This document shows, piece by piece, positions 1,901 through 55,244 of a DNA stretch of 64,000 bases. The notes beneath the pieces are model-generated. The model was given only the letters and a program-made list of their open reading frames with translations. It searched no databases and was not told where the DNA came from. Numbering within the stretch: position 1 is the stretch's first letter; each line of letters begins with the position of its first letter. Position numbers and translations under genes: made by a program. The stretch is from Quercus robur (lineage: Eukaryota > Streptophyta > Magnoliopsida > Fagales > Fagaceae): assembly GCF_932294415.1 (NCBI RefSeq), contig NC_065537.1:5870349-5934348 (forward strand). Direction: 5' to 3'.

Positions 1901-3075
1901 AAGATTCACTAGAATATTGTGAATCAAAAGGGATTTTTTTACAAAACACCCTTAAGTCAAAATAAAAGCTTGGGTACTCCTTTTTGAGGTATCAAGCTTC
2001 AACTCTTTCTTTTCTTTTCTGCCTTCTTGTTGTTTTTTAATTTGTTTCTTTGCTTAGTTTATATTTATATATGTTTGTTTAGGTTGGTTTTATGCCTTCT
2101 TTATTATTTTTTTTAAGCATGTTAGGCTGTTAGATTTAATCTTTTAAGTCTTACTCTATTTTTCTGCTTGTCTGTTTTCTAGGTTAGGATTCAGGCGTGT
2201 CTGCGTAAACATACTTTTGTATGCACACGCAAGTTCAAAGTATACGTACGCATGCAACTGGACTACGTATGCAGGCCTATGTATGTGCACGCATACTCAT
2301 ACCTAGAAACCCTAAACTTTGATTTCCCTGTTTCTTTGGCTTTGCTTATTTACTTAATATGCCTTTGTTTTAACCTTCTTATATGCTTTTGAGTTTCTTT
2401 TTTTGTTGTTCACATGTTTGTTTGTTATTGTATGCAGGATTAGGGTTTCTCCTTTTTAGTGCCATGCCATTCATTCACATGTCCATTCATCAATGCCATT
2501 GGTGCTATGATGCGATGAGGTAAGTAAAGGTAAGTCATGCATTTACATGTACATGCATATTGTTTTTGATAAACATGGTTTGATGATGAGCATGAATGTG
2601 TTTGGTCGAACAACGTGTTCTTAATGATCTTCATGTTCCCAATTAATGTGATCCTTTGACGTTTACATGTTGCTACCTTAGATGAGATATATGATATGAT
2701 GAATGTTAGGTAGATGATATGTATGATGATAACATGCTAGGGTTTGTATATGTGTGTGGTGTGGCTCTCTCTTGCTTGAGGATGATAAGTGTTATTTTGG
2801 GATAAAGATGCCATGTTGTATGTTAGATGCATGCTAGTGTGTGTGAGAGTTAGGATACAAGTGTTGAATTACTTTTTAATAGGGTTAAGACATGAGACAC
2901 AATGATGGGAGGCAAACCTTAGGGTTGGGCAATCTTAGGTGCCTAACACCCTCCCAAGAGCATACCTAAACTCTAAACCCATACTCTATTAGTAAGATCA
3001 AAGGTCCTTTCTCGAAATAATGCTATATTCATGGTTCCTAGAAAATATAACTAGGTGGCGACTCCAAGACCCCTT
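1560..3075 (+). mobile_element. Tat/Ogre-like LTR fossil, copy A
   Basis: This stretch matches 12000-13760 over many blocks: the CATGCGTACGC-rich segment, the block around GTTAGATGCATGCTAGTGTGTGTGAG, the GGTGCCTAACACC block and TTCATGGTTCCTAGA. It ends at 3055-3065 in TGGCGACTCC, which resembles the tRNA-Arg-type primer-binding site known for Ogre/Tat elements. Two 19-bp direct copies lie at 1662-1700, and an A tract of about 39 lies at 1859-1897. No internal coding region is attached, so it is a solo or truncated LTR. The left border is uncertain. Confidence 0.5.
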
Positions 3076-3339
3076 GTAAACACAATGTCAAACGTCCAGT
3101 AATATAAATATTACTTTCTTTTTTTAATGTAAATGATAGAGAATTTTGATTTAACCTATTGTAGGAAAAGAGTACAAATTGTCAACCTATTAAAAGGTTT
3201 AACAGACACCACCACCCACATTTGGCGTGATTATCACTTCACGAGAGTGTGCGCGGTGGTCTTACAATTTGGACCCCACATGTGAGTCTTACTAACTATT
3301 GGGCATACTCCCTATGTGAGAGCCCAAAAAACTACTCCA

Positions 3340-3560
3340 AGACTACTTATATATTTTTCAGCTACCAATAAGATGATTGCAAACCTTGGCATTGCAAAAT
3401 GGCAATAGAATATTTTCCATGTGAGATAGGTTCACTTATATAATTGTCACCTATTAGATTACTCAAAAATTGTGACGCATGTATCAATGTTTTTTTTTCT
3501 TATACCTAACCGTTTATTACAAGCAATGGGTGCACATACCTTTGATTGCAGTATTGGGAG
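3340..3560. repeat. Dispersed repeat, copy A
   Basis: This shares a recognisable sequence with 17990-18280, including GATTGCAAACCTTGGCATTGC, TATTTTCCATGTGAGA, TTATATAATTGTCACCTATTAG and GATTGCA near the right end. It is non-coding and its family is not recognised. Confidence 0.6.
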
Positions 3561-3987
3561 CAAAATATTTTTGTACTTTTTTTTTTTTCATATTATTATG
3601 AGATACTGTCAAATAAGATAGTATCTACATCAAATCTAAAGATAAATTCTATTATGCCACATTATAGACTAATCTTTTTTCTTCTTTTTTTTTTTTTTTT
3701 GAACCTTTTATCATTAGGGAAAGGCAACACAACCACATATGACAACAAAAGGGCCATTAATTTTAAAAGTCATATGTATATTTGAGAAACAAAGACATAT
3801 TAAAATGTGTATATATATCTATATAATAACTAATAGCCGAAATGTTTGAATTTTTGTTAACCGCTCCTTATTGCACCACTTGGCTACATAAATTGCAGCC
3901 ACATTTACATTTTAAAATACCGAACAGTTGTGCCTTTTTAATATATCTATTCACAATTACACCTGTTTCAAACGGGTGCCAGTGTGC

Positions 3988-3998
3988 CTATAAATAGG
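3988..3998 (+). promoter_or_regulatory. TATA box inside the Helitron
   Basis: CTATAAATAGG is a textbook plant TATA box. It lies about 360 bases before the captured exon's ATG and is followed by a long T tract at 4027-4066. It could drive transcription of the captured fragments, but nothing in the sequence shows that it does. Confidence 0.45.
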
Positions 3999-4024
3999 CA
4001 TCCCTCATTTCATTTTAAAAAGTT

Positions 4025-4066
<42 letters not shown>

Positions 4067-4283
4067 CATTCATAAGAGTTTTCAAAGATTGTAGTGCTTC
4101 TTCTACGTGTTATTCATCATTTTATCTTGGTCAGTTTTATATCAACATTGTGACTTTTCGTTTGGTGATTTTTGTTAAACATTTAAATTATTCACATTAG
4201 CATGTTTTATTTAATTATTTCGATTTTAATACCCTACCATCCCTACCTAATATGACTCATTCTCTTAACTGTTCCTCAAATAG

Positions 4284-4315
<32 letters not shown>

Positions 4316-4354
4316 CGAGTGAGAGAGAGAGAAAGCAAAAGAAAGAAAGAGAAG

Positions 4355-4462
4355 ATGACGAATTCGCTGTCGTCTAGAGAAATGGTGTATGTGGAGCACA
4401 CAAAGGACATCAATGGCTTCCCTAAGGTCATCCTCCGCTAGGTTCATGGTTGCTCCGCTGAG
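4355..4462 (+). pseudogene. Exon 1 fragment of a glucose-6-phosphate 1-epimerase-like gene
   Basis: The family is a cytosolic aldose 1-epimerase-like enzyme that interconverts alpha- and beta-glucose 6-phosphate. The translation MTNSLSSREMVYVEHTKDI, then NGFPKVILR, a stop, and VHGCSAE matches the N-terminus of plant members (VEHxKGINGLDKVILREVRGSSAE). It is followed at 4463 by a good splice donor, GTACGT. The family Glu codon (GAG) is TAG here (4439-4441), so the exon is broken at codon 29. The catalytic core is absent: no later exon of this gene (GGQVTSWKN, ELLFVSSK and so on) was found downstream. Because exon and intron sequence are both present, it was copied as DNA rather than from mRNA, in keeping with Helitron capture. 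Confidence 0.72.
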
Positions 4463-5621
4463 GTACGTTACGATCTTCGCTGTTTTCTCTATAAACCTTT
4501 CGCTCTGATTGTTTATTACTATTAAATCTATCAATGTGTTATGACTCTTCATTTATTCAATGATCTTCGATGATTTTTAGCCTAAATTTTGCAAATTGTG
4601 AACCAAAATTTGGTTGATTAATGCAATGGTCCACAATTCACATAGATGAGAAAACTTGGCTAATCTTGAAGCGAAGTTTGATATGAAAAGGTTTGTTTTT
4701 TTTTTTTTTTTTTTTTTTTGACGGTTTGCTCTCTGTGTTCTGCGAGAAAACAATGAGATTAGGATGTAAATGATGTTATCTTGGTTCTTGGATTATATTT
4801 TGACTAATTGAAACCAAAATCCTAAACCTTTATCTTTTAGAACTTTGTTTTGTGTGTGTAATGCTGCCAAATCTTTCTTTGTTTTGCATGTGTAATGTTT
4901 TTATGTACATATATAGTTTCCTTGCCACCATCAAATTCAAAGAATCTACAACTAAAGCCAACCATCTCTGAAGAGCAAAATTCGAACCCCAGGTAAGAAT
5001 TCTGATTCGCTTTCAATTGAAAACCTACCTACCCTATTATTATTTACCTTTGATGTTTTGGGTTGCTATGGCTGAATGGTTGGCCTTTAGTTCGCCAGCC
5101 TTAAAGAGGGTTTTCCAAAAAAAATTTAATTGTGTTTACTTTAGGGGCTATGGTTTCTTCTGCTTTATATCTTATTGTGGTAGAAGTCGAACACTTTAGT
5201 GGGTTTTCAAACTTGGGCTTCTTCCTCTAGAGGTGAAAGATACTTTCTTCAATTTTTGATTATTGGTTCTGGATTTACATTACTTTGCTATTATTATTAT
5301 TTTCATACGTGATGCATAGAATTGGATCATGGGTGAATTATAATTGAATTCATAGATTGATAGGTTTAGATAATTCAAATTATTGGATGCATTGAATTTT
5401 TATGTTCCTATCTGTGTTGTGATTTGTGATTTAAAAATATTGTATAGTTTATATCATCAGTTCCCCCTTTTAGTTGGTAGATTTTGGATCAAGCTAAATT
5501 GGATGGTGTCCTTTCTTCAAAATTCTAGACCTTTACATGAGACTCATTGAGACAAAAGATTTTTGAAGATTGGCCAACCCTATCATAGCATCACTCAATG
5601 TGCTCAACAATTGTCTAAGTG

Positions 5622-5658
<37 letters not shown>

Positions 5659-5822
5659 TGGCAAATTTTTTATGTTTATTTTATGAAAGTCCTCTATTTT
5701 CGTTTGGATTATTTATTATTTTTTTTTTTTCATGCAAATACAACATGATATTTGTTTTGTTTGCTAAGTATTTTCGTAATTATTAGAATATGATGAGTCT
5801 TATACCTTGATATTTTTTTTGC

Positions 5823-6169
5823 TGATTCTTCCCACTATAGCGGTAATACTTTTCAATATCCCAACCAAAGCACCTAGGTTGTCCACCTATTTCATCCTTT
5901 TAATTTTCAATTCAAGCCATTGATATCTACACTGCCTATGAGGTCTCTATCTTTCTCCATGTATATGTGTATGTGTGTGTAAAGTTTTTCTTTTTTTCTC
6001 TATTTATATGTTTAAAGTTTGACTGTTTTATGGCTTTTTGATGGGTGATATTTTCATTTTGGTTGGGATTGCTTAGGTGTTTCAAGTTAGAGTGAGTTTT
6101 GTAAAGGATGTGCAAAAGCAAGAGGCATGGTGGGAAAGACAACATGAACTTGCGGCTAAGAATTATGGG
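5823..6169 (+). other. Unidentified exon-like stretches inside the Helitron
   Basis: Two pieces look coding. At 6077-6169, after TTGCTTAG, the frame reads VFQVRVSFVKDVQKQEAWW and then ERQHELAAKNYG, with a possible donor (GTTAG) next. At about 5823-5877 the frame reads ADSSHYSGNTFQYPNQ. Amino-acid use is unlike the surrounding AT-rich shadows. I do not recognise the gene. They may be captured exons of a second host gene. Confidence 0.3.
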
Positions 6170-6529
6170 GTTAGAAATTCTTCTAATATTTCTTATTCTT
6201 CTTCTTCCTCTTTCAATTTTTATTTCTTTAAGTTTTCATTTTGTTTGAATAGAACTGTTAGCATTTACATGTATTTTTGTGTGGTTGTCTTTAGAATAAA
6301 TAGATTATGACTTTGGGAATTTACTTTCTGACTTAAGTGAATTATAAATATTGGGGCCTTGAAGCTTATTTCATCATAATTTACCACAAATCAATTGAAA
6401 CTGTATGACCTATTATCTATATATGTTTAAAAGAAAAGGTTTTTTTTTTTTTTTTTTGGCCCTATTTGAAGCTTCTCAATGGGTATCACTAAGACTTAGT
6501 AAGAAAACCACAAATATGATAAACAATAT

Positions 6530-7460
6530 GTGCCTTCTCAGGTTTGTGGGAAAGGACAGAACTTTTGTATTTTTGGGCTAGGAAAGGGTTCTGTTTATGG
6601 TGTTATGGAGGGCTAGAACAGTGGTAGTTTTTGAGGATCATAGATTCCTTGTCACTTTGCTATGAACTTTGCTATTGCATTAATTTGTAGACAGCTTCTA
6701 AACTCTATAGACTTGGTCCTTCGATGTGCATGGCAGAAAGCAAAAAATAAAATTTAGTAGTAGGCTGGTAGCTATGGATCTTTGTACAAGATTTATAATT
6801 TCATCATTGAAAGTGTCAAAGTTTATCATTTTAGTACAAATTTTGTAGTTTGTTATTGGAAGAGGAAGAAGAAGAAAAAAATGTAATCTAAATAATTCTG
6901 TAATATATTCCATTTACTCATTATTACATTAGTTGCTAATTAACACAAAATTTGGTTGTTTTTAATCTAGAACTCTGAATTTTGTGATTTTTAATAAGAA
7001 TTATTTGCTGGAACTTAATATTTTAAGCATCAATAGCTAAATATAGAGAAGAAACAAAAGAAAGTAAGAACAAAGTGGGGAAATGTTATTGGGTCATCTC
7101 TGCTTCTTTCTCTTTTCTTTTCTTTGCCCTGCTTTTTTCCATATCCCCTTTTTTACTTTTGCTCCCATGCCTTGTTGCTTGCTTTGTTGTATATGTTCTT
7201 GTTGTTGGTTGTTAGGGGTGAATGGGAAAAGGAGCTGCCTTTGCTGGGTTTCTTGGTTCAATAAGAAAAAGGAGGAAGCTTTATATGTTTTTGGTCATGC
7301 TTTCTTTGGGTTTCTTTGAGAGGTTGGTCTGACTGCTGGGGGGAGTTTTTTGTGGTCTCGGCCTTCTCAGGGAGGGAAGTTTTTGTATTTTTGGGCTAGG
7401 AAAGGGTTTTGTTTATGGATTTTTGGAGGACTGAAATAGTAGTACTTTTTGTATTTGTTA
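6530..7460. repeat. Duplicated ~90-base segment inside the Helitron
   Basis: The block around TTTTGTATTTTTGGGCTAGGAAAGGGTT occurs near 6563 and again near 7382, with related flanks (TTCTCAGG before, GTTTATGG after). This is an internal direct duplication about 0.8 kb apart. It is non-coding. Confidence 0.55.
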
Positions 7461-8014
7461 TGTTACTTTTTTTCTTTTCTATCTCATTTGTCTGTATTGA
7501 ATTGTGCTTAAGAACAGCCAATGCTATTGCCCATTGTAACTAGATAGATAAATCACTTTGTTGTATACTGAAAAATATGAGCAGCAAGATAGAGTCAGAA
7601 AAAATTGCCCCCTTTTGTAAAATATGTTACTATCTAATTTTATAAAGAACTTTTTTCTACCATTGAGTTGGCTCATCAGACTTGGAATATATGTAGATTG
7701 TTTTAAATCTAACCCACATTTGTAAAGGATTTGTGATGTTTCCGTACTTAGAGGTATAGAATATGGGTATGTACACTTTACATGAAACTGTATACACAAA
7801 TTTTACTATTAGTAGAAAATTTTCTACTACGATTGTTTAAATATGAGTTATGAAAACAAGTTTGAGTAAAAAGTGAAGAAGAGGGTTAATTTTTTTTAAT
7901 AATTTGATAATTCAAGAAGAGAGTGTTTGAACCTAACCAATATAGCTATAATGTTATATAAATTTTGTAGATATTCTTTGTGCTTTCCCGTGTATCACAC
8001 GGGTTAGCGACTAG

Positions 8015-8110
8015 TAATAACTAATAGTTAAAACATTTGACTTTTTGTTGACCGCGCCTCATTGCACCACTAAACTACATAAGTTGCGCCACTTGACTTT
8101 TTATCACCGA
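8015..8110 (+). mobile_element. Start of a second Helitron-like element, directly abutting the first
   Basis: Immediately after CTAG at 8011-8014 the sequence TAATAACTAATAG begins. It resembles the first ~100 bases of the upstream Helitron (3822 onward): AATAACTAATAG, TTTTTGTT(A/G)ACCGC, CATTGCACCACT and CTACATAA all recur. The head of a sister element therefore sits tail-to-head with the first. Its own 3' end was not found. Confidence 0.5.
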
Positions 8111-8749
8111 GAAATTAAGACATTAAATTATGTTATCTTCCATGCATATTTTGTAAATATACATGTCAATAAAATATTAGTCTCTTTTCTTTAAGGAAAG
8201 TGGTCAAGATAAACCTAATTGAAGAGAAGAAACTTTATCTTGGAAATTAGTGTGAGAACAATAAATTAAAGAAAATTAGTCTGAAGAATTATTTGTTTCT
8301 CGAAAATTCCAAGCGGAGTTTGAATTTAATTTAACTTGCAATTGGTGAGATTTGGCTTGTCTTAGCACGAACATACTAATGCGCACCATATACACAGGCA
8401 CGAAACTTTGTCGGTGCGCCGTAACGCACCAAATGCGAAACTCTACCTGATTTTCTCTATGAAAATGGGGCACCTTTGTTGCTGTATTCTCACCGTGAAA
8501 GCTTGATTAGGATAGTGTTTTTTTTTTTGTGTGCTATGGCATACTGAGGCGAAATGCTACATCATTTTCACCATGAAAATAAGGCGAGGTGTTGCCAAAT
8601 TTTTGTCATGGAAATTTGGCAACAATTCCAAATGTGCAAGCAAAGCATTGATAAGTGACCACACCCCTTCCAAAATCAAACCTCAAAACCCAATTATTTT
8701 GAACCCCCGAAAGCTAATGCCAATAGCTTGTTTTTAACTGTTAATGTCT

Positions 8750-9075
8750 TAAAAATTAAGATTTTACCAAAACAAATGACTGTCTTCGAATAGGTGTTGT
8801 GGGGAGCCTAACACCTTCCTCGCATGTAACCAGACTTCCAAACTCAAGAATCAATATTTTTTTATAATTCACATTAGATTAGGAAAAACGACCATTTTTC
8901 TTAGCCTAAGATTGGTAAAAAAATCAAATAAAACCAGGTGACTAATCACACCTTAGAAAAAATTCAATGATTATTGGTGGTGTCTTCACTTACCTTTGGT
9001 GAATAATAGGTTAAAATCAACTCATCCCAGTCACTCGCGTCACCACGAGGTATTGACAATCACCATTAAACCAAA
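8750..9075 (+). mobile_element. Fragment of a Tat/Ogre-like LTR
   Basis: Contains the same landmarks as the two larger LTR copies: the AGCCTAACACCTTC block, AGGTGACTAAT, and near 9090 a TATTGTAGGAAAA segment also found at 3160. It is diverged, partial and old. Confidence 0.4.
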
Positions 9076-9079
9076 ACTC

Positions 9080-10174
9080 AATTTATTGTAGGAAAAAAGT
9101 CAGTACGTATTTCTTTCTTGAAATATCAAGAGATTCACTCTAGGAAGAAGCTTGGAATCTAAACAATGTGGATTGAATAGTGGAGTCAATTTTCTTCTAC
9201 AAATTCAATTACCATTGACTAAATCACCTCCACAAGATGATATAATTACTTGATCCTTGTAATCAAAATTTAAGATTTACAGTAGGTTCGGCTTTGATTC
9301 ATTTTGAAAAGTCTAGTCTACTCAAGCCACATGCTAAGATCAAAAAAACTTTTAAAAAAGACATTGACAATGTGACTTTTATACTATAATAAACAATTAT
9401 CGACTTCTCAGTTCTAGATTTCTAGTGTCCTTTGGAAATCAATATACACAATAACAAAATATATAAAAGAAAATAGCCAAAAAAAAAAAAAAACTCACAA
9501 TCTTAACTCAAGCAATTATAAGCGAAGAATTCAATTTTTGAAAGTACCAAAAGATAGCTTTTGTATAGATATAGATATTGATTGATTAGTATAGCAAATT
9601 TTAAGTACATATATTCAAAGCAATAGATAACACATACAAATGAAAAATCAATTCTACAATCTAAAATCGAAATTCCTAAAATGAGTGTTTGATATATTCA
9701 CATTTCATTTTCCTAAAACTTCCTAAAAAAACCATAATAAAGTGACAACTAGCAAATTAATGGCAGTAGCCAACTGGGTTTTGTCTAATTGTGTCAAATC
9801 AATCAATCAATATATATATATAAACAAAGACCTCATGGAGGAGAGTACAAGGTTCTGCCAAGTGGCATATCCTTTGCAATAGTCTTTCTACAATTTCCAC
9901 ATAGAGCTGTCACAAGAGACTCTCTCCAAGACATTGTTCATTAATTCAGCATGTTAGACCCTATCATTGTTAACCTTTCTTCTTCTTCTTTTTTCCGTGC
10001 TTATTTGTGAAGGGTTTTTTCATCCATTGTCTTTCCACCTTCTCTCAACTCTTCATCTCCCAACCATCAACCCAATTGGCTAACATTCAATTGCTACATA
10101 TTGAAATTAAAACTCAATTGCTCACGTTCAATGCTTCTCACTGTTTTTGACTTCCCAATTTAATTCAGTTTACT
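9080..10174. other. Gene-free stretch
   Basis: AT-rich DNA with no convincing coding frame, only simple runs such as AATCAATCAATC and (TA)n near 9803-9822. A pyrimidine-rich area at 9970-10060 has no open frame attached. Confidence 0.5.
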
Positions 10175-45813: not shown

Positions 45814-46570
45814 TAAAAAAAGCCTTTTAACAGTTCCAAACAAATAAAACCCCTATGCATACTTAAACATAAAGCAACCATATTATATGGAAAGGACAAG
45901 AAGGAAATATATAAGAACTAGAATTCTAGTTTTATTCATTTTGAACTACTTGTCAATGTGTCATGCCTTTTATTAATGGGCTTGTACTCATGGACTTCTA
46001 AATAAGGACAACCCAGAAGCCTAATTTCGAATGTAAGAAAAGAACATGGGATAGAACAATAAATCTATATACCTTTGGCAGTAAAAGCTTCCAGTTTCAA
46101 TGTTTACTTGCTTTCCAGCACATGAAGTGCTTTGTCTTGCCATTCTTTTTTCGTACATTGTAAATAATATATATATAACTGTTAGGTATGCAAGTGGTAA
46201 TTTTTCTCTTCCTGACGTCTTCTAGGAATAAGCCACTGAAAATGAAAGCTAGATAAAAGAACATTTATAGAAAGCCTCTTTTTGACATCAATTTTACCAA
46301 CACAAACTAACAACTAAGCCTCTTTAACAATTATAATTTTTATATAGAAACAGAATTGAAAGTTTGGAATTTTATTGAGTCTTAAAAAAAAAAAAAAAAC
46401 TATTTTATTTTAGTGAAATATTTTTTATTTGATAATCACAACCGCTACAAGAGGAAAAATTCAGAAATAAAACAGGAAAACACAAAAAACCCAGAAATAA
46501 ATTTGACCTTTCTCTTCCTTTTCCACTGTTTTACCATCAATCAAACAGAAAATTGAACACAAACCAAAAT

Positions 46571-46863
46571 TTAATAAATAAATAAACAAAAAACAGAGAA
46601 TTCACACAAAGTATTAAATAAGACAAGAGAGAGGACCTTGAGGATGCGGTTCACGTTGTCAAGGTCGATGAGATGAAGAGAGAGAGAAAGACACAGTCCG
46701 TTGAAGAGGAAAACAGAGTCCACTGAGAAATTGTGGCGACTGGAGTAGTGTGAACATGACAATTACCCAACAACAAGTGGACTAGAAAAGAAGAACAGTG
46801 AAAAGAAAGAGGAAATGAGGGAATATTATTGGTGGGACCACCAAAGACAACGAGGTTGACCAA
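46571..46863 (-). other. Conserved possible exon within the tandem unit
   Basis: On the minus strand a GC-richer stretch reads SVDSVFLFNGLCLSLSLHLI, then DLDNVNRILK, followed by AAG|GTCCTC, which could be a donor. It is identical in unit 2 (51361-51653). It could be a first exon or leader of a divergent transcript; I recognise no family. Confidence 0.25.
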
Positions 46864-46957
46864 AAAAACCCATTTGCGTGGCTTTTTTTTTTTTCAATTA
46901 TTCTCATTTGTTTTGGATCCTTTGGCTTGTATTTCTTTTAATATTTTATAAATTGCA

Positions 46958-47262
46958 GAACCCACCCTAAGTTTCTCCATAATTCATTTTAATCCTCTAA
47001 CATAGTTTCATTTTAGTCCTTTAAATTTTGGATTTATTCAATTAAGGTTTTTCCGTCAACTTTTGTAAAATTTTTTGATAAAAACAAATTTGTAAAATAT
47101 TTTTCAATTATTAATTGAATTTTTTTTATAAAAATTTAAAGATTGAAAAAATAGCTACAACATATAATAAAAGTTTATGAAAAAAATCTTAATTAAATAA
47201 ATTTTAAAGTTAGAGGACCGAAATAAAAGAAAATAAAGTTAAAGAATTGAAATGAATTTTGC
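46958..47262. mobile_element. Foldback MITE in unit 1
   Basis: Left arm AATTCATTTTAATCCTCTAAC...TTTAGTCCTTTAAA, right arm TTTAAAGTTAGAGGACCGAAAT...AAATGAATTTTGC: inverted arms of about 70 bp. The duplicate is at about 51750-52054, so the insertion predates the duplication. Confidence 0.6.
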
Positions 47263-48093
47263 TTACATTGTATAGATTTGCGGTATTACACAATTTTTAT
47301 AAATAAAATTACATATATTCAATTTACATGGAAGAATAAAATCATGGATTGAGGATACTGAACTTCCCACAACTATGGTTTTCCTTAACATCAACAGCCG
47401 AGAGTGCCCTAGGACCTAGCCCCATGATTAATGTACCATTTATACATGTTACCAGACCCACCATCACCAATTTCCTCACAAATAAACTTATCAAGCATTG
47501 CTTTGCATCATGCATTCTCTGTTATGAGCTCATGTAGTTACTCAAACCCAACTACACTAATAATGAAAACATTATCAAGATTTGTTTGTTTTCTAAATTT
47601 ATGTAATTAGTTATTCTTCTTTAATTCACTTTGATGGAAGCATGTTATATATATAGTTAAAATGGTTGTGGGAATTTAAAAATCATATGTTGGAAACCTC
47701 ACGATTTTCCAATTAAGCTGCAAAGCTATTATCAAACAAATTATCAATTTATTAAATATATAAAATCTAGAAGAATTCATCAATTGAAGATACCCAATGA
47801 GTGTAGGGCACCCAAGCTATTTACTTGTGGAACACACAAAAGGAAAAACAACCTTGAACAAGAGAAAAGATTTTCTAAACAAGAGAGACTTTCAAATGTA
47901 CACTAGGGAAAAAGTAGACCCCAAATTTGTGGTGTGAATTTAAATAGCTGAGATTTGGTTGATAAAAATCTCTTTTGTGTTTGTTTGTTTATTAACAAGC
48001 CAAACTTAAATTTTATTTTTAGACTTATTTGATAAACTAGTGAGGGGAACTTTTGAATCTACACTAAAGAAAAAGTAGACCCCAAAATTGTTG

Positions 48094-48386
48094 GGGAAAA
48101 ATAGGAATTCGCTCTTAATTTACAAACTATGCAGCAAAATTATCCTGTTTTGAAACTATTTAACAAAATGCCCCAATTTTTTAAACTCAATTTTAACAAA
48201 ATCGAGCTATAGGTGAAACTCGACATTAGCAATGTCGAGTTCCATGCATATTTTGCCACTTAAATTTTTTTGAAGATATCAAGTTTTACACCAAGTTTCA
48301 AAATAGGAGCATTTTGGTAAATAATTTCAAAACATGTGCATTTTACTACATACTTTTCAAATTAGGGGTAAATGGCTATTTTCCCT
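48094..48386. mobile_element. Mutator-type MITE in unit 1
   Basis: Ends GGGAAAAATAG and CTATTTTCCC(T), with AAATTGTTG on both sides (48085-48093, 48387-48395), a 9-bp target duplication. The centre holds the palindrome ACTCGACATT-AGC-AATGTCGAGT. The unit 2 copy is at 52864-53156 with the same borders. Confidence 0.7.
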
Positions 48387-49700
48387 AAATTGTTGTGAGG
48401 GTAAGCAGTTGGGATTTGATTGATAAAAATATCTTTTTTATGTCTATTTATTTATTAACAACCCAAACTTAAATTTTATTTTTGGGCTTTTTTGATAAAC
48501 AAGCTCAGTACAAAAAATGGGCTTGATAAAGCTTGAAAATAGGCTTGAATAATAAGCCCAAACAATCTTTCTGCCGTGCCCCTATGATTTCCATGGTGGT
48601 ACACATGGCCCACTTATATCCATTTATCTCATTTTCCATGTCTAAAAAGAATATATATATATATATCAAAGTATTAGAATTCTTAGATTTGGGAACCTAG
48701 AAGCAGGAGGAAGATTGAGAAAAATTATTACCTATCAAACTCATAGACACTAACGTTGTAGAAAAGAAGAGACAGAAGGGCATCCCCACTAAAGGTTTAG
48801 TAACGGTTAGACCGAGCTTTTGCAAAACATGTGGAATGGTGTCAATGTAGAAGGGAAGACATTTGGTGAAGCAACAGATGAACAATATGTGTGTATGGGC
48901 CCATAGAATGGGGACAAGAGTTTAGCGTGTGTGTGTGTGTAATTCAGTTTGTGGAGTTTCTATGCTTAATGAAAATTAGAGGGAGTGAGAAGTATAATTT
49001 TAAATGGAAGAAAACAACATATTATTGTGGAAAATTTACAATGGGTAAAGCAAAATTTATCCATGGAAAATTCACACACTTTCTGTCTCCTCTGGCCATG
49101 AGACTCTTAAGTCGAAAACTGGTCAGAACTCTTGTTGTTGATTCATGCTTTTTCCAATTTCTATGATGTTGAGGTTTTTTTTCTGGGGCCCAAACCCATT
49201 AGGAGGCAACCCCAAGTCGAAGTACTTAATGTACTTGGGGCTTACAAAACAATCTTTGCGCTTCAAGACAACCATCAAACCTCATTTTTGTGAATGACCC
49301 CTTAATGGAGAAGTTTATGTACTTTTTCATTTCTAAGTAGTAATTACTTTGTACTTAGAGCCTGTTTGAATATTGTTTATTGTTGAAATTTGAAAACTGA
49401 AAATTGAAAATATTGTAACAAAATAATTTTTAAATGTATGAATAGTACTGTGGAACCTAATTTTAAAGTTTTTTTTTTTTTTTTAAAGTAGTTTGTGGGT
49501 CCTATGACAGTGCACAGGACCCACTATTTTTAAAAGAAGTTTATGTACTTTTTCATCTCTAAGTAGTATGTACTTAAACTGCAAGCCAATCTTTGATATA
49601 AAACAAAGAGTACCGTCCATGGCATATTTCAGTTTCAGGAAAAAAAAAAAAAAGTGGAACTTAACAAACAAGTTTATCTCCATGGCTCATATCAGTCTTC

Positions 49701-49711
49701 ATTATATATAA
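49701..49711 (+). promoter_or_regulatory. TATA box of the truncated gene copy
   Basis: ATTATATATAAGAG lies about 75 bases before the ATG at 49783, as in the intact copy, so the duplicated promoter is preserved. Confidence 0.5.
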
Positions 49712-49782
49712 GAGAAGCATGTATTGTACTAATATTGAAGTGATCATTTGTTTATAGTAGTAGTAGAAGTTCATAAGTATTG

Positions 49783-50353
49783 ATGGCTTACATTCCTCCA
49801 CACAAGCGTCACTCATACGAAGCTGCTAGTAGTAGTGAATCTAGTGATATGCATAATAGACCCTCACCAATCCCATAATCCCTTGTTCCTCAATTCAGAA
49901 GAAATCTTACTTTGAGGTTGCCACCCAAAACCTTTTCACAAAGATGTGGGAAGATCGTTTATAATTATGCAAAGCAGGCTATTTCCACATGGTTTCCTGT
50001 TGGTTTGGATCACAATCACCAGTTTCCATCTTCTGTACATGTTACCCCAGTTCCCTTGCAACTTTTTGGGAGAACAACAGGAACAAATCCACTAGTTTTG
50101 TTCAATAACAACAACAATCATCCAGGTAAATGTTATTATTTTTCTGCTCAGATTTTTTGTTTGTAACTAATTATTAATAATGGGTTTGTTGGTTTTGGTT
50201 AGTTGAGCAAGTGAGGAGTCCATGGGTGTATATAGCAGAAAATGTTGTGTCAGACTTGCTTTCTTCTTTCGAGAATGTTAAGGATGAAAAGTTGGACTTG
50301 GAAGACGTCAAGCCAAAGTTGGTTGCTAGATTTGGAAAAATTCTTTTTCATGA
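49783..50353 (+). pseudogene. Truncated copy (exons 1-2) of the DUF7903-like gene
   Basis: Exon 1 (49783-50125) and exon 2 (50203-50353) align base for base with the intact gene at 54647. Codon 32 is TAA (49876-49878) where the intact copy has CAA, so translation from the normal ATG stops after MAYIPPHKRHSYEAASSSES and eleven more residues. Other differences include NLNL to TLRL, and Arg to Cys and Glu to Lys changes. Splice sites (CAG|GTAAAT, AG|TTGAGC, GA|GTAAGT) are intact. Exons 3-8 are absent because the duplication ended in intron 2. With the promoter retained, it may be transcribed into the spacer and beyond. Confidence 0.9.
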
Positions 50354-50383
50354 GTAAGTCAGCTTCTATTCTATTCTATGAGT

Positions 50384-50591: not shown

Positions 50592-53500
50592 ACCAAAAAA
50601 AAAAAAAAAAAAGCCTTTTAACAGTTCCAAACAAATAAAACCCCTATGCGTACTTAAACATAAAGCAACCATATTATATGGAAAGGACAAGAAGGAAATA
50701 TATAAGAATTAGAATTCTAGTTTTATTCATTTTGAACTACTTGTCAATGTGTCATGTCTTTTATCAATGGGCTTGTACTCATGGACTTCTAAATAAGGAC
50801 AACCCAGAAGCCTGATTTCGAATGTAAGAAAAGAACATGGGATAGAACAATAAATCTATATACCTTTGGCAGTAAAAGCTTCCAGTTTCAATGTTTACTT
50901 GCTTTCCAGCACATGAAGTGCTTTGTCTTGCCATTCTTTTTTCGTACATTGTAAATAATATATATATAACTGTTAGGTATGCAAGTGGTAATTTTTCTCT
51001 TCCTGACGTCTTCTAGGAATAAGCCACTGAAAATGAAAGCTAGATAAAAGAACATTTATAGAAAGCCTCTTTTTGACATCAATTTTACCAACACAAACTA
51101 ACAACTAAGCCTCTTTAACAATTATAATTTTTATATAGAAACAGAATTGAAAGTTTGGAATTTTATTGAGTCTTAAAAAAAAAAAAAATTTATTTTATTT
51201 TAGTGAAATATTTTTTATTTGATAATCACAACCGCTACAAGAGGAAAAATTCAGAAATAAAACAGGAAAACACAAAAAACCCAGAAATAAATTTGACCTT
51301 TCTCTTCCTGTTCCACTGTTTTACCATCAATCAAACAGAAAATTGAACACAAACCAAAATTTAATAAATAAATAAACAAAAAACAGAGAATTCACACAAA
51401 GTATTAAATAAGACAAGAGAGAGGACCTTGAGGATGCGGTTCACGTTGTCAAGGTCGATGAGATGAAGAGAGAGAGAAAGACACAGTCCGTTGAAGAGGA
51501 AAACAGAGTCCACTGAGAAATTGTGGCGACTGGAGTAGTGTGAACATGACAATTACCCAACAACAAGTGGACTAGAAAAGAAGAACAGTGAAAAGAAAGA
51601 GGAAATGAGGGAATATTATTGGTGGGACCACCAAAGACAACGAGGTTGACCAAAAAAACCCATTTGCGTGGCTTTTTTTTTTTTCAATTATTCTCATTTG
51701 TTTTGGATCCTTTGGCTTGTATTTCTTTTAATATTTTATAAATTGCAGAACCCACCCTTAAGTTTCGGCATAATTCATTTTAATCCTCTAACATAGTTTC
51801 ATTTTAGTCCTTTAAATTTTGGATTTATTCAATTAAGGTTTTTCCGTCAACTTTTGTAAAAGTTTTTGATAAAAACAAATTTGTAAAATATTTTTCAATT
51901 ACTAATTGAATTTTTTTTATAAAAATTTAAAGATTGAAAAAATAGCTACAACATATAATAAAAGTTTATGAAAAAAATCTTAATTAAATAAATTTTAAAG
52001 TTTGAGGACCGAAATAAAAGAAAACAAAGTTAAAGAACTGAAATGAATTTTGCTTACATTGTATAGATTTGCGGCATCACACAATTTTTATAAATAAAAT
52101 TACATATATTCAATTTACATGGAAGAATAAAATCATGAATTGAGGATACTGAACTTCCCACAACCATGGTTTTCCTCAACATCAACAGCCGAGAGTGCCC
52201 TAGGACCTAGCCCCATGATTAATGTACAATTTATACATGTTACCAAACCCACCATCACCAATTTCCTCACAAATAAACTTATCAAGCATTGCTTTGCATC
52301 ATGCATTCTCTGTTATGAGCTCATGTAGTTACTCAAACCCAACTACACTACTAATGAAAACATTATCAAGATTTGTTTGTTTTCTAAATTTATGTAATTA
52401 GTTATTCTTCTTTAATTCACTTTGATGGAAGCACGTTATATATATAGTTAAAATGGTTGTGGGAATTTAAAAATCATATGTTGGAAACCTCACGATTTTC
52501 CAATTAAGCTGCAAAGCTATTAAATATATAAAATCTAGAAGAATTCATCAATTGAAGATACCCAATGAGTGTAGGGCACCCAAGCTATTTACTTGTGGAA
52601 CACAGAAGGAAAAGCAACCTTGAATGAGAGAAAAGATTTTCTAAACAAGAGAGACTTTCAAATGTACACTAGGGAAAAAGTAGACCTCAAATTTGTGGTG
52701 TGAATTTAAATAGCTGAGATTTGGTTGATAAAAATCTCTTTTGTGTTTGTTTGTTTGTTTATTAACAAGCCAAACTTAAATTTTATTTTTAGACTTATTT
52801 GATAAACTAGTGAGGGGAACTTTTGAATCTACACTAAAGAAAAAGTAGACCCCAAAATTGTTGGGGAAAAATAGGAATTTGCTCTTAATTTACAAACCAT
52901 GCAGCAAAATTATCCTGTTTTGAAACTATTTAACAAAATGCCCCTATTTTTTAAACTCAATTTTAACAAAATTGAATTATAGGTGAAACTCGACATTAGC
53001 AATGTCAAGTTCCATGCATATTTTGCCACTTAAATTTTTTTAAAGATATCAAGTTTTACACCAAATTTCAAAATAGGAGCATTTTGGTAAATAATTTCAA
53101 AACATGTGCATTTTACTACATACTTTTCAAATTAAGGGTAAATGGCTATTTTCCCCAAATTGTTGTGAGGGTAAGTAGTTGGGATTTGATTGATAAAAAT
53201 ATCTTTTTTATGTCTATTTATTTATTAACGAGCCCAGCTTAAATTTTATTTTTGGGCTTTTTTGAGAAACAAGCTCAGTACCAAAAATGGGCTTGATAAA
53301 GCTTGAAAATAGGCTTGAATAATAAGCCCAAACAATCTTTCTGCCGTGCCCCTATGATTTCCATGGTGGTACACATGGCCCACTTATATCCATTTATCTC
53401 ATTTTCCATGTCTAAAAAGAATATATATATATATATATATATATATATCAAAGTATTAGAATTCTTAGATTTGGGAACCTAGAAGCAGGAGGAAGATTGA

Positions 53501-55244
53501 GAAAAATTATTACCTATCAAACTCAAAGACACTAACGTTGTAGAAAAGAAGAGACAGAAGGGCATCCCCACCAAAGGTTTAGTAATGGTTAGACCGAGCT
53601 TTTGCAAAACATGTGGAATGGTGTCAATGTAGAAGGGAAGACATTTGGTGAAGCAAAAGATGAACAATATGTGTGTATGGGCCCATAGAATGGGGACAAG
53701 AGTTTAGCGTGTGTGTGTAATTCAGTTTGCGGAGTTTCTATGCTTAATGAAAATTAGAGGGAGTGAGAAGTATAATTTTAAATGGAAGAAAACAACATAT
53801 TATTGTGGAAAATTTACAATGGGTAAAGCAAAATTTACCCATGGAAAATTCACACACTTTCTGTCTCCTCTAGTCATGGGAGTGCTCTTAAGTCGAAAAC
53901 TGGTCAAAACTCTTGTTGTTGATTCATGCTTTTTTCAATTTCTATGGTGTTGAGGTTTTTTTTTCTAGGGCCCAAACCCATTAGGAGACAACCCCAAGTC
54001 AAAGTACTTAATGTACTTGGGGCTTACAAAACAATCTTTGCGCTTCGGGACAACCATCAAACCTCATTTTTGTGAATGACCCCCTTAATGGAAAAGTTTA
54101 TGTACTTTTTCATCTCTAAGTAACAATTACTTTGTACTTAGAATCTGTTTGAATACCGTTTATTGTTGAAAACTGAAGACTGAAAATTGAAAATATTATA
54201 ATAAAATAATTTTTAAATGTGTAAATAGTACTGTGAGACCCAGTTATAAAGTTGATTTTTTGGAAAAAGTAGTTTGTAGGTTCTGTGAACAGTACACAGA
54301 ACCCACTATTTTTAAAAGAAGTTTATGTACTTTTTCATCTCTAAGTAGTATGTACTTAAACTGCAAGCCAATCTTTGATATAAAACAAAAAGTACCGCCC
54401 ATGACTGATCATAACAAAATGTTTTTTTCTTTGGATAAAAGGTAAGAAAACCAAATTTGGGAACTTAAGAAATAAGTTGAATTCCATGGCATATTTCAGT
54501 TTCAGGAAAAAAAAAAAGTGGAACTTAACAAACAAGTTTATCTCCATGGCTCATATTAGTCTTCATTATATATAAGAGAAGCATGTATTGTACTAATATT
54601 GAAGTGATCGTTTGTTTGTAGTAGTAGTAGAAGTTCATAAGTATTGATGGCTTACATTCCTCCACACAAGCGTCACTCATACGAAGCTGCTAGTAGTAGT
54701 GAATCTAGTGATATGCATAATAGACCCTCACCAATCCCACAATCCCTTATTCCTCAATTCAGAAGAAATCTTAATTTGAGGTTGCCACACAAAACCTTTT
54801 CACAAAGAAGTGGAAAGATTGTTTATAATTATGCAGAGCAGGCTATTTCCACATGGTTTCCTGTTGGTTTGGATCACAATCACCAGTTTCCATCTTCTGT
54901 ACATGTTACCCCAGTTCCCTTGCAACTTTTTGGGAGAACAACAGGAACAAATCCACTAGTTTTGTTCAATAACAACAACAATCATCCAGGTAAATGTTAT
55001 TATTTTTCAGCTCATATTTTTTGTTTGTAACTAATTATTAATAATGGGTTTGTTGGTTTTGGTTAGTTGAGCAAGTGAGGAGTCCATGGGTGTATATAGC
55101 AGAAAATGTTGTGTCAGACTTGCTTTCTTCTTTCGAGAATGTCAGGAATGAAAAGTTGGACTTGGAAGACGTCAAGCCAAAGTTGGTTGCTAGATTCGGA
55201 AAGATTCTTTTTCATGAGTAAGTCATGCTTCTATTCTATTCTTC
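50592..55244. repeat. Tandem duplication, unit 2
   Basis: Partner of 45814-50383. It retains the 80-bp segment missing from unit 1, has a longer (TA)n run (53420-53448 against about 48650-48668), and leads into the complete gene. It carries its own copies of the two MITEs. Confidence 0.92.
54566..54576 (+). promoter_or_regulatory. TATA box of the DUF7903-like gene
   Basis: TTATATATAAG about 80 bases upstream of the ATG at 54647, with GTAGTAGTAG in the leader. Position and sequence fit a plant TATA box. Confidence 0.5.

Follow-up and report, generated by a model that had tools for sequence, protein, structure and literature searches.

What brings the first exon of a glucose-6-phosphate 1-epimerase gene into a stretch of oak DNA that lacks the rest of that gene, and what carried it there? 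We addressed this question in a 64-kb stretch of the Quercus robur genome (the window; C4:5870349-5934348, within NC_065537.1, of a 785.7-Mb genome in 42 contigs), where a preliminary description made from the letters alone had placed a Helitron transposon carrying such an exon and a TATA box of its own. Coordinates without a contig prefix refer to the window, and a slash marks a junction between two bases. We conclude that 3818-8014 is a non-autonomous Helitron of the typical gene-capturing type, which as such is ordinary for plants. What raises it above routine is the recurrent, exact position at which Helitrons of this genome are joined to one another's 5′ ends.

Both ends of the element and their copies

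Canonical Helitrons are defined by a 5′ TC, a 3′ CTRR and a hairpin of 16-20 bp lying 10-15 bp from the 3′ end (PMC13286980). The element has TC at 3818 and CTAG at 8011-8014, and its 17-base hairpin stops 11 bases short of the 3′ end. It opens with TCTATATAATAACTAATAG directly after the A at 3817 (A/TC, 3817/3818) and closes with the hairpin, seven further bases and CTAG, followed by T at 8015. The A and T on either side are those of a Helitron insertion between A and T without target-site duplication, and the ends first proposed for the element (A/TC; hairpin plus CTAG/T) thus hold to the base at 3817/3818 and 8014/8015. A hairpin with CTAGT of equal strictness occurs a single time across both strands of the 64 kb; in 20 mononucleotide shuffles the average was 0.3 per window.

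The element and its flanks are also present in a segmental duplicate at C4:5807000-5816900, 63.5 kb away and about 93% identical (comparing 2001-10000, the identity is 92.8% over 2001-8500 and 92.6% over 8551-9987). C4:5.81 Mb was rejected as an independent second copy because the flanks match too.

Copies of the two ends are dispersed through the genome. The last 115 bases gave at least 40 matches (the best 40 of 52 candidates were scored), of which 32, the window included, extend to the last base, and three, including the segmental duplicate, end one base early. In a sample of 26 of the 31 other end-reaching matches (L002, L004-L008, L088-L107), CTAG is followed by T in all 26, and the downstream flank, judged by eye, is unrelated to that of the window. 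The first 207 bases (3818-4024), which belong to a 5′ end that we call type 5′B, gave 42 matches, of which 16, counting the window, extend over 200 or more of the 207 bases. We retrieved 13 of the 15 other full-length 5′B loci: the segmental duplicate and 12 more. Two of the 12, C5b and C5c, are duplicates of each other, their 5′ flanks matching, and were rejected as two independent insertions. Similarity to the window sets in at 3797-3824 in 11 of the 12 and at 3772 in the remaining one, always within AT-rich sequence.

Other copies of the last 30 bases, sought as a check on the proposal, do exist: 28-30 of these bases lie downstream on the same strand in seven of the 12 loci and on the opposite strand in one. 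The two ends thus recur together, as had been expected, and the expected similar spacing does not recur, since none of the seven shows about 4.2 kb (five have 1.5-1.9 kb, one 2.3 kb and one 5 kb). This variation indicates that the ends belong to a family with variable interiors. We rejected a chance origin of the ends on the basis of their same-strand co-occurrence, the hairpin shuffles and the CTAG/T in 26 of 26 copies.

The captured exon and its source gene

The source gene, L051, is intact and lies on the minus strand at C5:84255000-84262500. Window positions 4294-4924 align to it at 81% identity, from which the captured piece is seen to span the 5′ untranslated region, exon 1 and the start of intron 1, ending at 4924 where other cargo starts. 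The ATG (4355-4357) and the splice donor (GAG/GTACGT, 4462/4463) enclose an in-frame TAG at 4439-4441; exon 1 of the source gene is in the same frame and has GAG in place of the TAG. Later stretches of the source gene are recognisable as epimerase exons, two of them matching PF01263 above the cut-off. The 36-residue peptide of the captured exon matched no Pfam family, and among solved structures it found no more than two weak matches (E 0.17 and 0.79); the exon is identified by its alignment to exon 1 of an intact gene, two of whose later exons match PF01263. The proposed epimerase exon with its downstream donor is thereby confirmed, and it lies apart from the rest of its gene, as capture requires, the source being at 84.26 Mb of contig C5. 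A match between the cargo and an intact host gene elsewhere in the genome is what marks a gene-capturing Helitron.

A 191-base exon query found 24 matches at 23 places, the window included. At 18 of the 23, a Helitron 3′ end follows 2.4-8.8 kb downstream on the same strand (measured start to start); C5b, C5c, the source gene, C35:34952076 and C39:1248409 are the places without a matching 3′ end. The recurrence of the exon with the same kind of 3′ end argues for capture followed by amplification.

Exchange of 5′ ends

With the segmental duplicate left out, ten exon-carrying relatives were examined. A different 5′ region, type 5′A, is present in seven of them, L045-L050 and the L006 locus; its start, A/TCTATATATA...AAAACCGAA, can be read clearly in L045, L047 and L006. 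Two (L041 and L042, the duplicated C5 pair) have 5′B as in the window, and one (L044) has yet another left part. In an exon alignment of 13 rows (12 Helitron rows and the source gene), about 30 bases directly upstream of the capture are common to 10 of the 12 Helitron rows, of both 5′A and 5′B type; L044 and L045 differ. Judged by these sequences, one capture with subsequent replacement of the 5′ end would fit best. That an element differs from most of its relatives in its 5′ end is a known result of nesting: for maize (PMC3288121) and Fusarium (PMC5148889), Helitrons are described that nest and then transpose from the outer 5′ end.

The predominance of 5′A among the relatives, together with the occurrence of the whole arrangement elsewhere only in the segmental duplicate, would also suit a shorter element, in which the 5′B end at 3818 is an independent Helitron 5′ fragment lying upstream of a 5′A element without an end of its own. 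We consider this improbable. The C5 locus has the same 5′B-epimerase junction elsewhere and loses similarity at the 5′B start, which indicates at least one move of the joined unit; moreover, the left and right flanks of the element read as one Helitron 5′ end with a single base off in the first six.

Reading frame and TATA box

The captured open reading frame of the window copy is decayed. It ends after 28 codons, in agreement with the stop codon seen at the outset; at this codon, the 13 aligned rows comprise two TAG, 10 GAG and one AAG. A 43-bp deletion within the exon shifts the frame in seven of the 13 rows, and the matches of the exon query start exactly at the deletion point in 15 of the 23 places and further in at two. 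By eye, the exon copies of L045-L050 and L006 gain an alternative frame through this deletion, read from the same ATG (MTKTSMASLRSFSARFVVAPL-like).

The TATA box ascribed to the element is present, and it is not special to this copy: CTATAAA (3988-3994) is kept in 14 of 14 5′B copies, the window included, and also stands at loci where the exon search found nothing. We rejected the idea that it was captured with the exon, since it belongs to the Helitron 5′ end. Perhaps it once served as promoter of an autonomous ancestor. As far as the motifs go, transcription could start at this family TATA box and continue through exon 1 and its donor. A stronger claim would be that the captured exon is functional, with a TATA-driven transcript spliced from the epimerase donor into downstream exons to give a new gene. 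TATA box, ATG and splice donor do stand in this order on one strand, and HelibatN3 in bats works in this way (PMC4778049); with the TAG in the window copy and the frame-shifting deletion in its relatives set against them, a functional exon seems quite unlikely.

A recurrent nesting position

The sequence directly downstream of the element is a further 5′B end without its first 6 bp. The genome contains the junction CTAG/TAATAACTAATAG 23 times and a reversed control pattern not once; that of the window (8011-8031) is among the 23, and in each, a Helitron 3′ end is joined at bp 6/7 of a 5′B end. When the spacing between CTAGT and AATAACTAATAG was scanned from 0 to 12 bases, 28 matches were obtained, 23 at zero and five elsewhere (2, 8, 10, 12 and 12), two of these five keeping an intact TCTATATAATAAC. 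The neighbouring A/T step, CTAGTATAATAAC, was found in none of the 28. Grouped at 80% identity over 38 upstream bases (before the hairpin region), the 23 junctions fall into 19 groups, so that most are probably separate insertions by different Helitrons. A strict stem test with G-T pairs allowed gave perfect 7-bp stems at 12 junctions, 5-bp stems at five and none at six, and these six resemble decayed hairpins by eye. For comparison, the genome contains 87 intact 5′B starts (19-mer) against the 23 nested junctions.

The left sides can be read in the same way at some loci. At C40:43282024-43284011, the left-hand TCTATA and the right-hand TAATAACTAATAGCC join into an unbroken 5′ end after A. The left flanks end in TTTATA at C3:38643162 and in TATATA in the window, each one base off TCTATA. 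At C40a, TCTATA stands on the left and the right side resembles another Helitron's 5′ end by eye. TCTATA directly precedes 29 of the 87 intact 5′B starts, six of the 29 forming a regularly spaced array on C1. Only C40:43282024 among the 29 has the exact right junction within 10 kb, so that most of the 29 are either variant 5′ ends or insertions into other sequences. The notion that TCTATA before an intact 5′ end always signals nesting is weakened by C41:2192553, where the right flank is ordinary and not Helitron-like. In the sample of 26 window-type 3′ ends, TAATAAC follows in no case, and what follows in L008 looks by eye like a Helitron 5′ end. In sequences retrieved to cover the 5′ ends of nested elements, L082 has a 5′B end and L083 and L084 have none. 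Separately, six Helitron 5′ starts that have 25 bases in common follow one another every 14-16 kb across C1:9863047-9942753, where a large unit is probably repeated in tandem.

In our judgement, the evidence is evenly balanced on whether the first bases of Helitrons are a preferred Helitron landing site here, many different Helitrons having inserted at TCTATA/TAATAACTAATAG, 6 bp inside the 5′B end. If they are, a possible cause by analogy would be that the element's own nuclease cuts or melts the internal AT step of the 5′ end. In vitro, the Helraiser transposase cleaves single-stranded DNA of the left end, one strand at the 5′ TC and the opposite one at an internal AT (PMC4778049); a nuclease bound to the left end and opening it at such an AT would turn the step into a ready target. 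It is also possible that Helitrons plainly prefer TCTATAT-like sequence, the bound nuclease playing no role. We found no report of a fixed base position for nesting in the open-licence literature.

Other cargo and neighbouring features

The features of the element are collected in Table 1.

Table 1. Coordinates of the Helitron, its parts and its insertion target in the window.
Feature	Position	Strand	Remarks
Non-autonomous Helitron	3818..8014	+	4197 bp, flanked by A (3817) and T (8015); ends checked against further copies
5′ terminal region, type 5′B	3818..4240	+	right edge approximate
TATA-like CTATAAATAG	3988..3997	+	part of 5′B end
Captured epimerase fragment: 5′ untranslated region, exon 1, start of intron 1	4267..4924	+	left edge approximate, read from alignment
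Epimerase exon 1	4355..4462	+	own splice donor GT at 4463-4464
Premature TAG	4439..4441	+	2 of 13 rows: window copy and segmental duplicate only
Second acquired fragment	4925..5660	+	edges approximate; parts also at C5:9.47 Mb beside Helitron-like 3′ end
Third acquired fragment	5666..6531	+	left edge approximate; holds protein-like stretch near 6077-6165
Partial duplicate of 3′ terminal sequence 7371-7451	6541..6633	+	
3′ terminal region common to many Helitron copies	7157..8014	+	6 non-duplicate loci align from 7157/7159 to CTAG, 87-90%
Terminal hairpin CCCGTGT-ATC-ACACGGG	7987..8003	+	7-bp stem, 3-nt loop
Right flank: another 5′B Helitron end minus first 6 bp, insertion target	8015..8103	+	81% to 3824-3914

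Beyond the epimerase piece, 4925-6250 gave at least 47 matches (40 of 190 candidates were scored), and among the matches listed, 18 (window and duplicate included) cover at least 1100 of the 1326 bases. Such broad coverage indicates that this sequence is carried along by the family. Two stretches of it, 4925-5045 and 5170-5560, recur at C5:9.47 Mb, a locus that likewise has a Helitron-like 3′ end. Similarity to 5925-6531 is found at C39:29.5 Mb, and C4:25.85 Mb has counterparts of 5666-5761 and 5950-6531; at both loci the similarity breaks off at 6531, where a further acquired fragment seems to end. For the additional protein-like stretches proposed on the same strand, homology to other loci stands, and coding is putative. 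Pfam named none of the acquired pieces. In a first set of three peptides, two matched no family and one gave a sub-threshold match to RLIP76 that we treated as chance (E 0.017; 15.7 bits, below the cut-off of 24.5); two further peptides and another two non-epimerase peptides matched no family.

A related 5′B Helitron at C5:57095700-57107400 (L029, L030) has part of its cargo internally duplicated, and an inverted relative of this locus lies near C5:56936000 (L026). Past the shared part, the locus has an exon-like stretch without a Pfam match that resembles RNA-binding protein 42. Elsewhere in the window, 45815-50377 and 50606-55242 form a tandem pair of about 4.6 kb, 96-97% identical.

Proposed history of the element

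Rep/helicase supplied from elsewhere would have moved the non-autonomous element. Its ancestor took up about 650 bp of the epimerase gene (the start of intron 1, exon 1 and the 5′ untranslated region), along with two or more further fragments, and then spread, as is shown by the some 20 places that have the exon, most with the same 3′ end. For the replacement of 5′A by 5′B, transposition most likely began at a Helitron 5′ end lying just upstream of the carrier or nested in it, and would have continued from this acquired 5′B end as far as the 3′ end of the carrier. The window copy inserted at A/T inside the 5′ end of another 5′B Helitron, and a segmental duplication afterwards copied element and flanks.

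We hold this overall account, from capture and amplification through the swap of 5′ ends and the insertion into a 5′B Helitron to the later segmental duplication, with high confidence. Several observations weigh against it. The match to the source gene is no higher than 81%. The whole 4.2-kb arrangement is found elsewhere just once, in the segmental duplicate, which leaves independent movement of the exact assembly unsupported. The second locus with 5′B and epimerase sequence (C5, with an inverted duplicate of its own) diverges from the window at 6132 and has no recognised 3′ end. Finally, five of the 40 3′ matches cover just 7900-7982 (about the first 82 query bases) without the terminal hairpin, and the 3′ 30-mer is missing downstream in five of the 12 5′B loci. 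That the exon is instead a local remnant of a decayed epimerase-gene duplicate, with Helitron-like ends by coincidence, would suit the normal gene order of exon and intron over about 630 bp, and was rejected as extremely improbable, because the exon is found at 23 places (in 18, the same Helitron 3′ end follows), the sequence directly upstream of the capture is common to 10 of 12 Helitron rows, and comparison with the source gene reveals no other epimerase exon in 2001-10000.

Comparison with known Helitrons

HelibatN3 of Myotis is a Helitron that captured the NUBPL promoter with a small coding piece and a splice donor (PMC4778049). The oak element resembles it as a non-autonomous Helitron with the 5′ part of a host gene, a splice donor and many copies. 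It differs from HelibatN3 as described there in that its TATA box is part of the Helitron end, its captured frame is interrupted and a transcript is putative. Maize helA Helitrons each combine several captured fragments of genes with termini that are exchanged or multiple (PMC3288121); stepwise capture of gene fragments, nesting and new combinations of 5′ and 3′ ends are common to both systems, whereas the sequences differ and, set beside that description, oak has one exact nesting position that recurs. In Fusarium, composite FoHelis arose by self-insertion; in one case the insertion lies 2 bp upstream from a partial 5′ terminus, and another may be a double 5′-end insertion (PMC5148889). These too are insertions at or near another Helitron's 5′ end; in contrast to the recurrent fixed base position in oak, the FoHelis described there are single cases and non-canonical Helitrons.

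The element thus offers a gene capture that can be traced within one genome, with source gene, capture junctions, copies and exchange of ends. Nesting at bp 6/7, if true, would provide Helitrons with an inherent means of exchanging 5′ ends and of bringing captured genes together. If the one-base nesting site holds genome-wide, the target choice of the Helitron nuclease, the clustering of Helitrons and the recombination of their ends would become directly testable.

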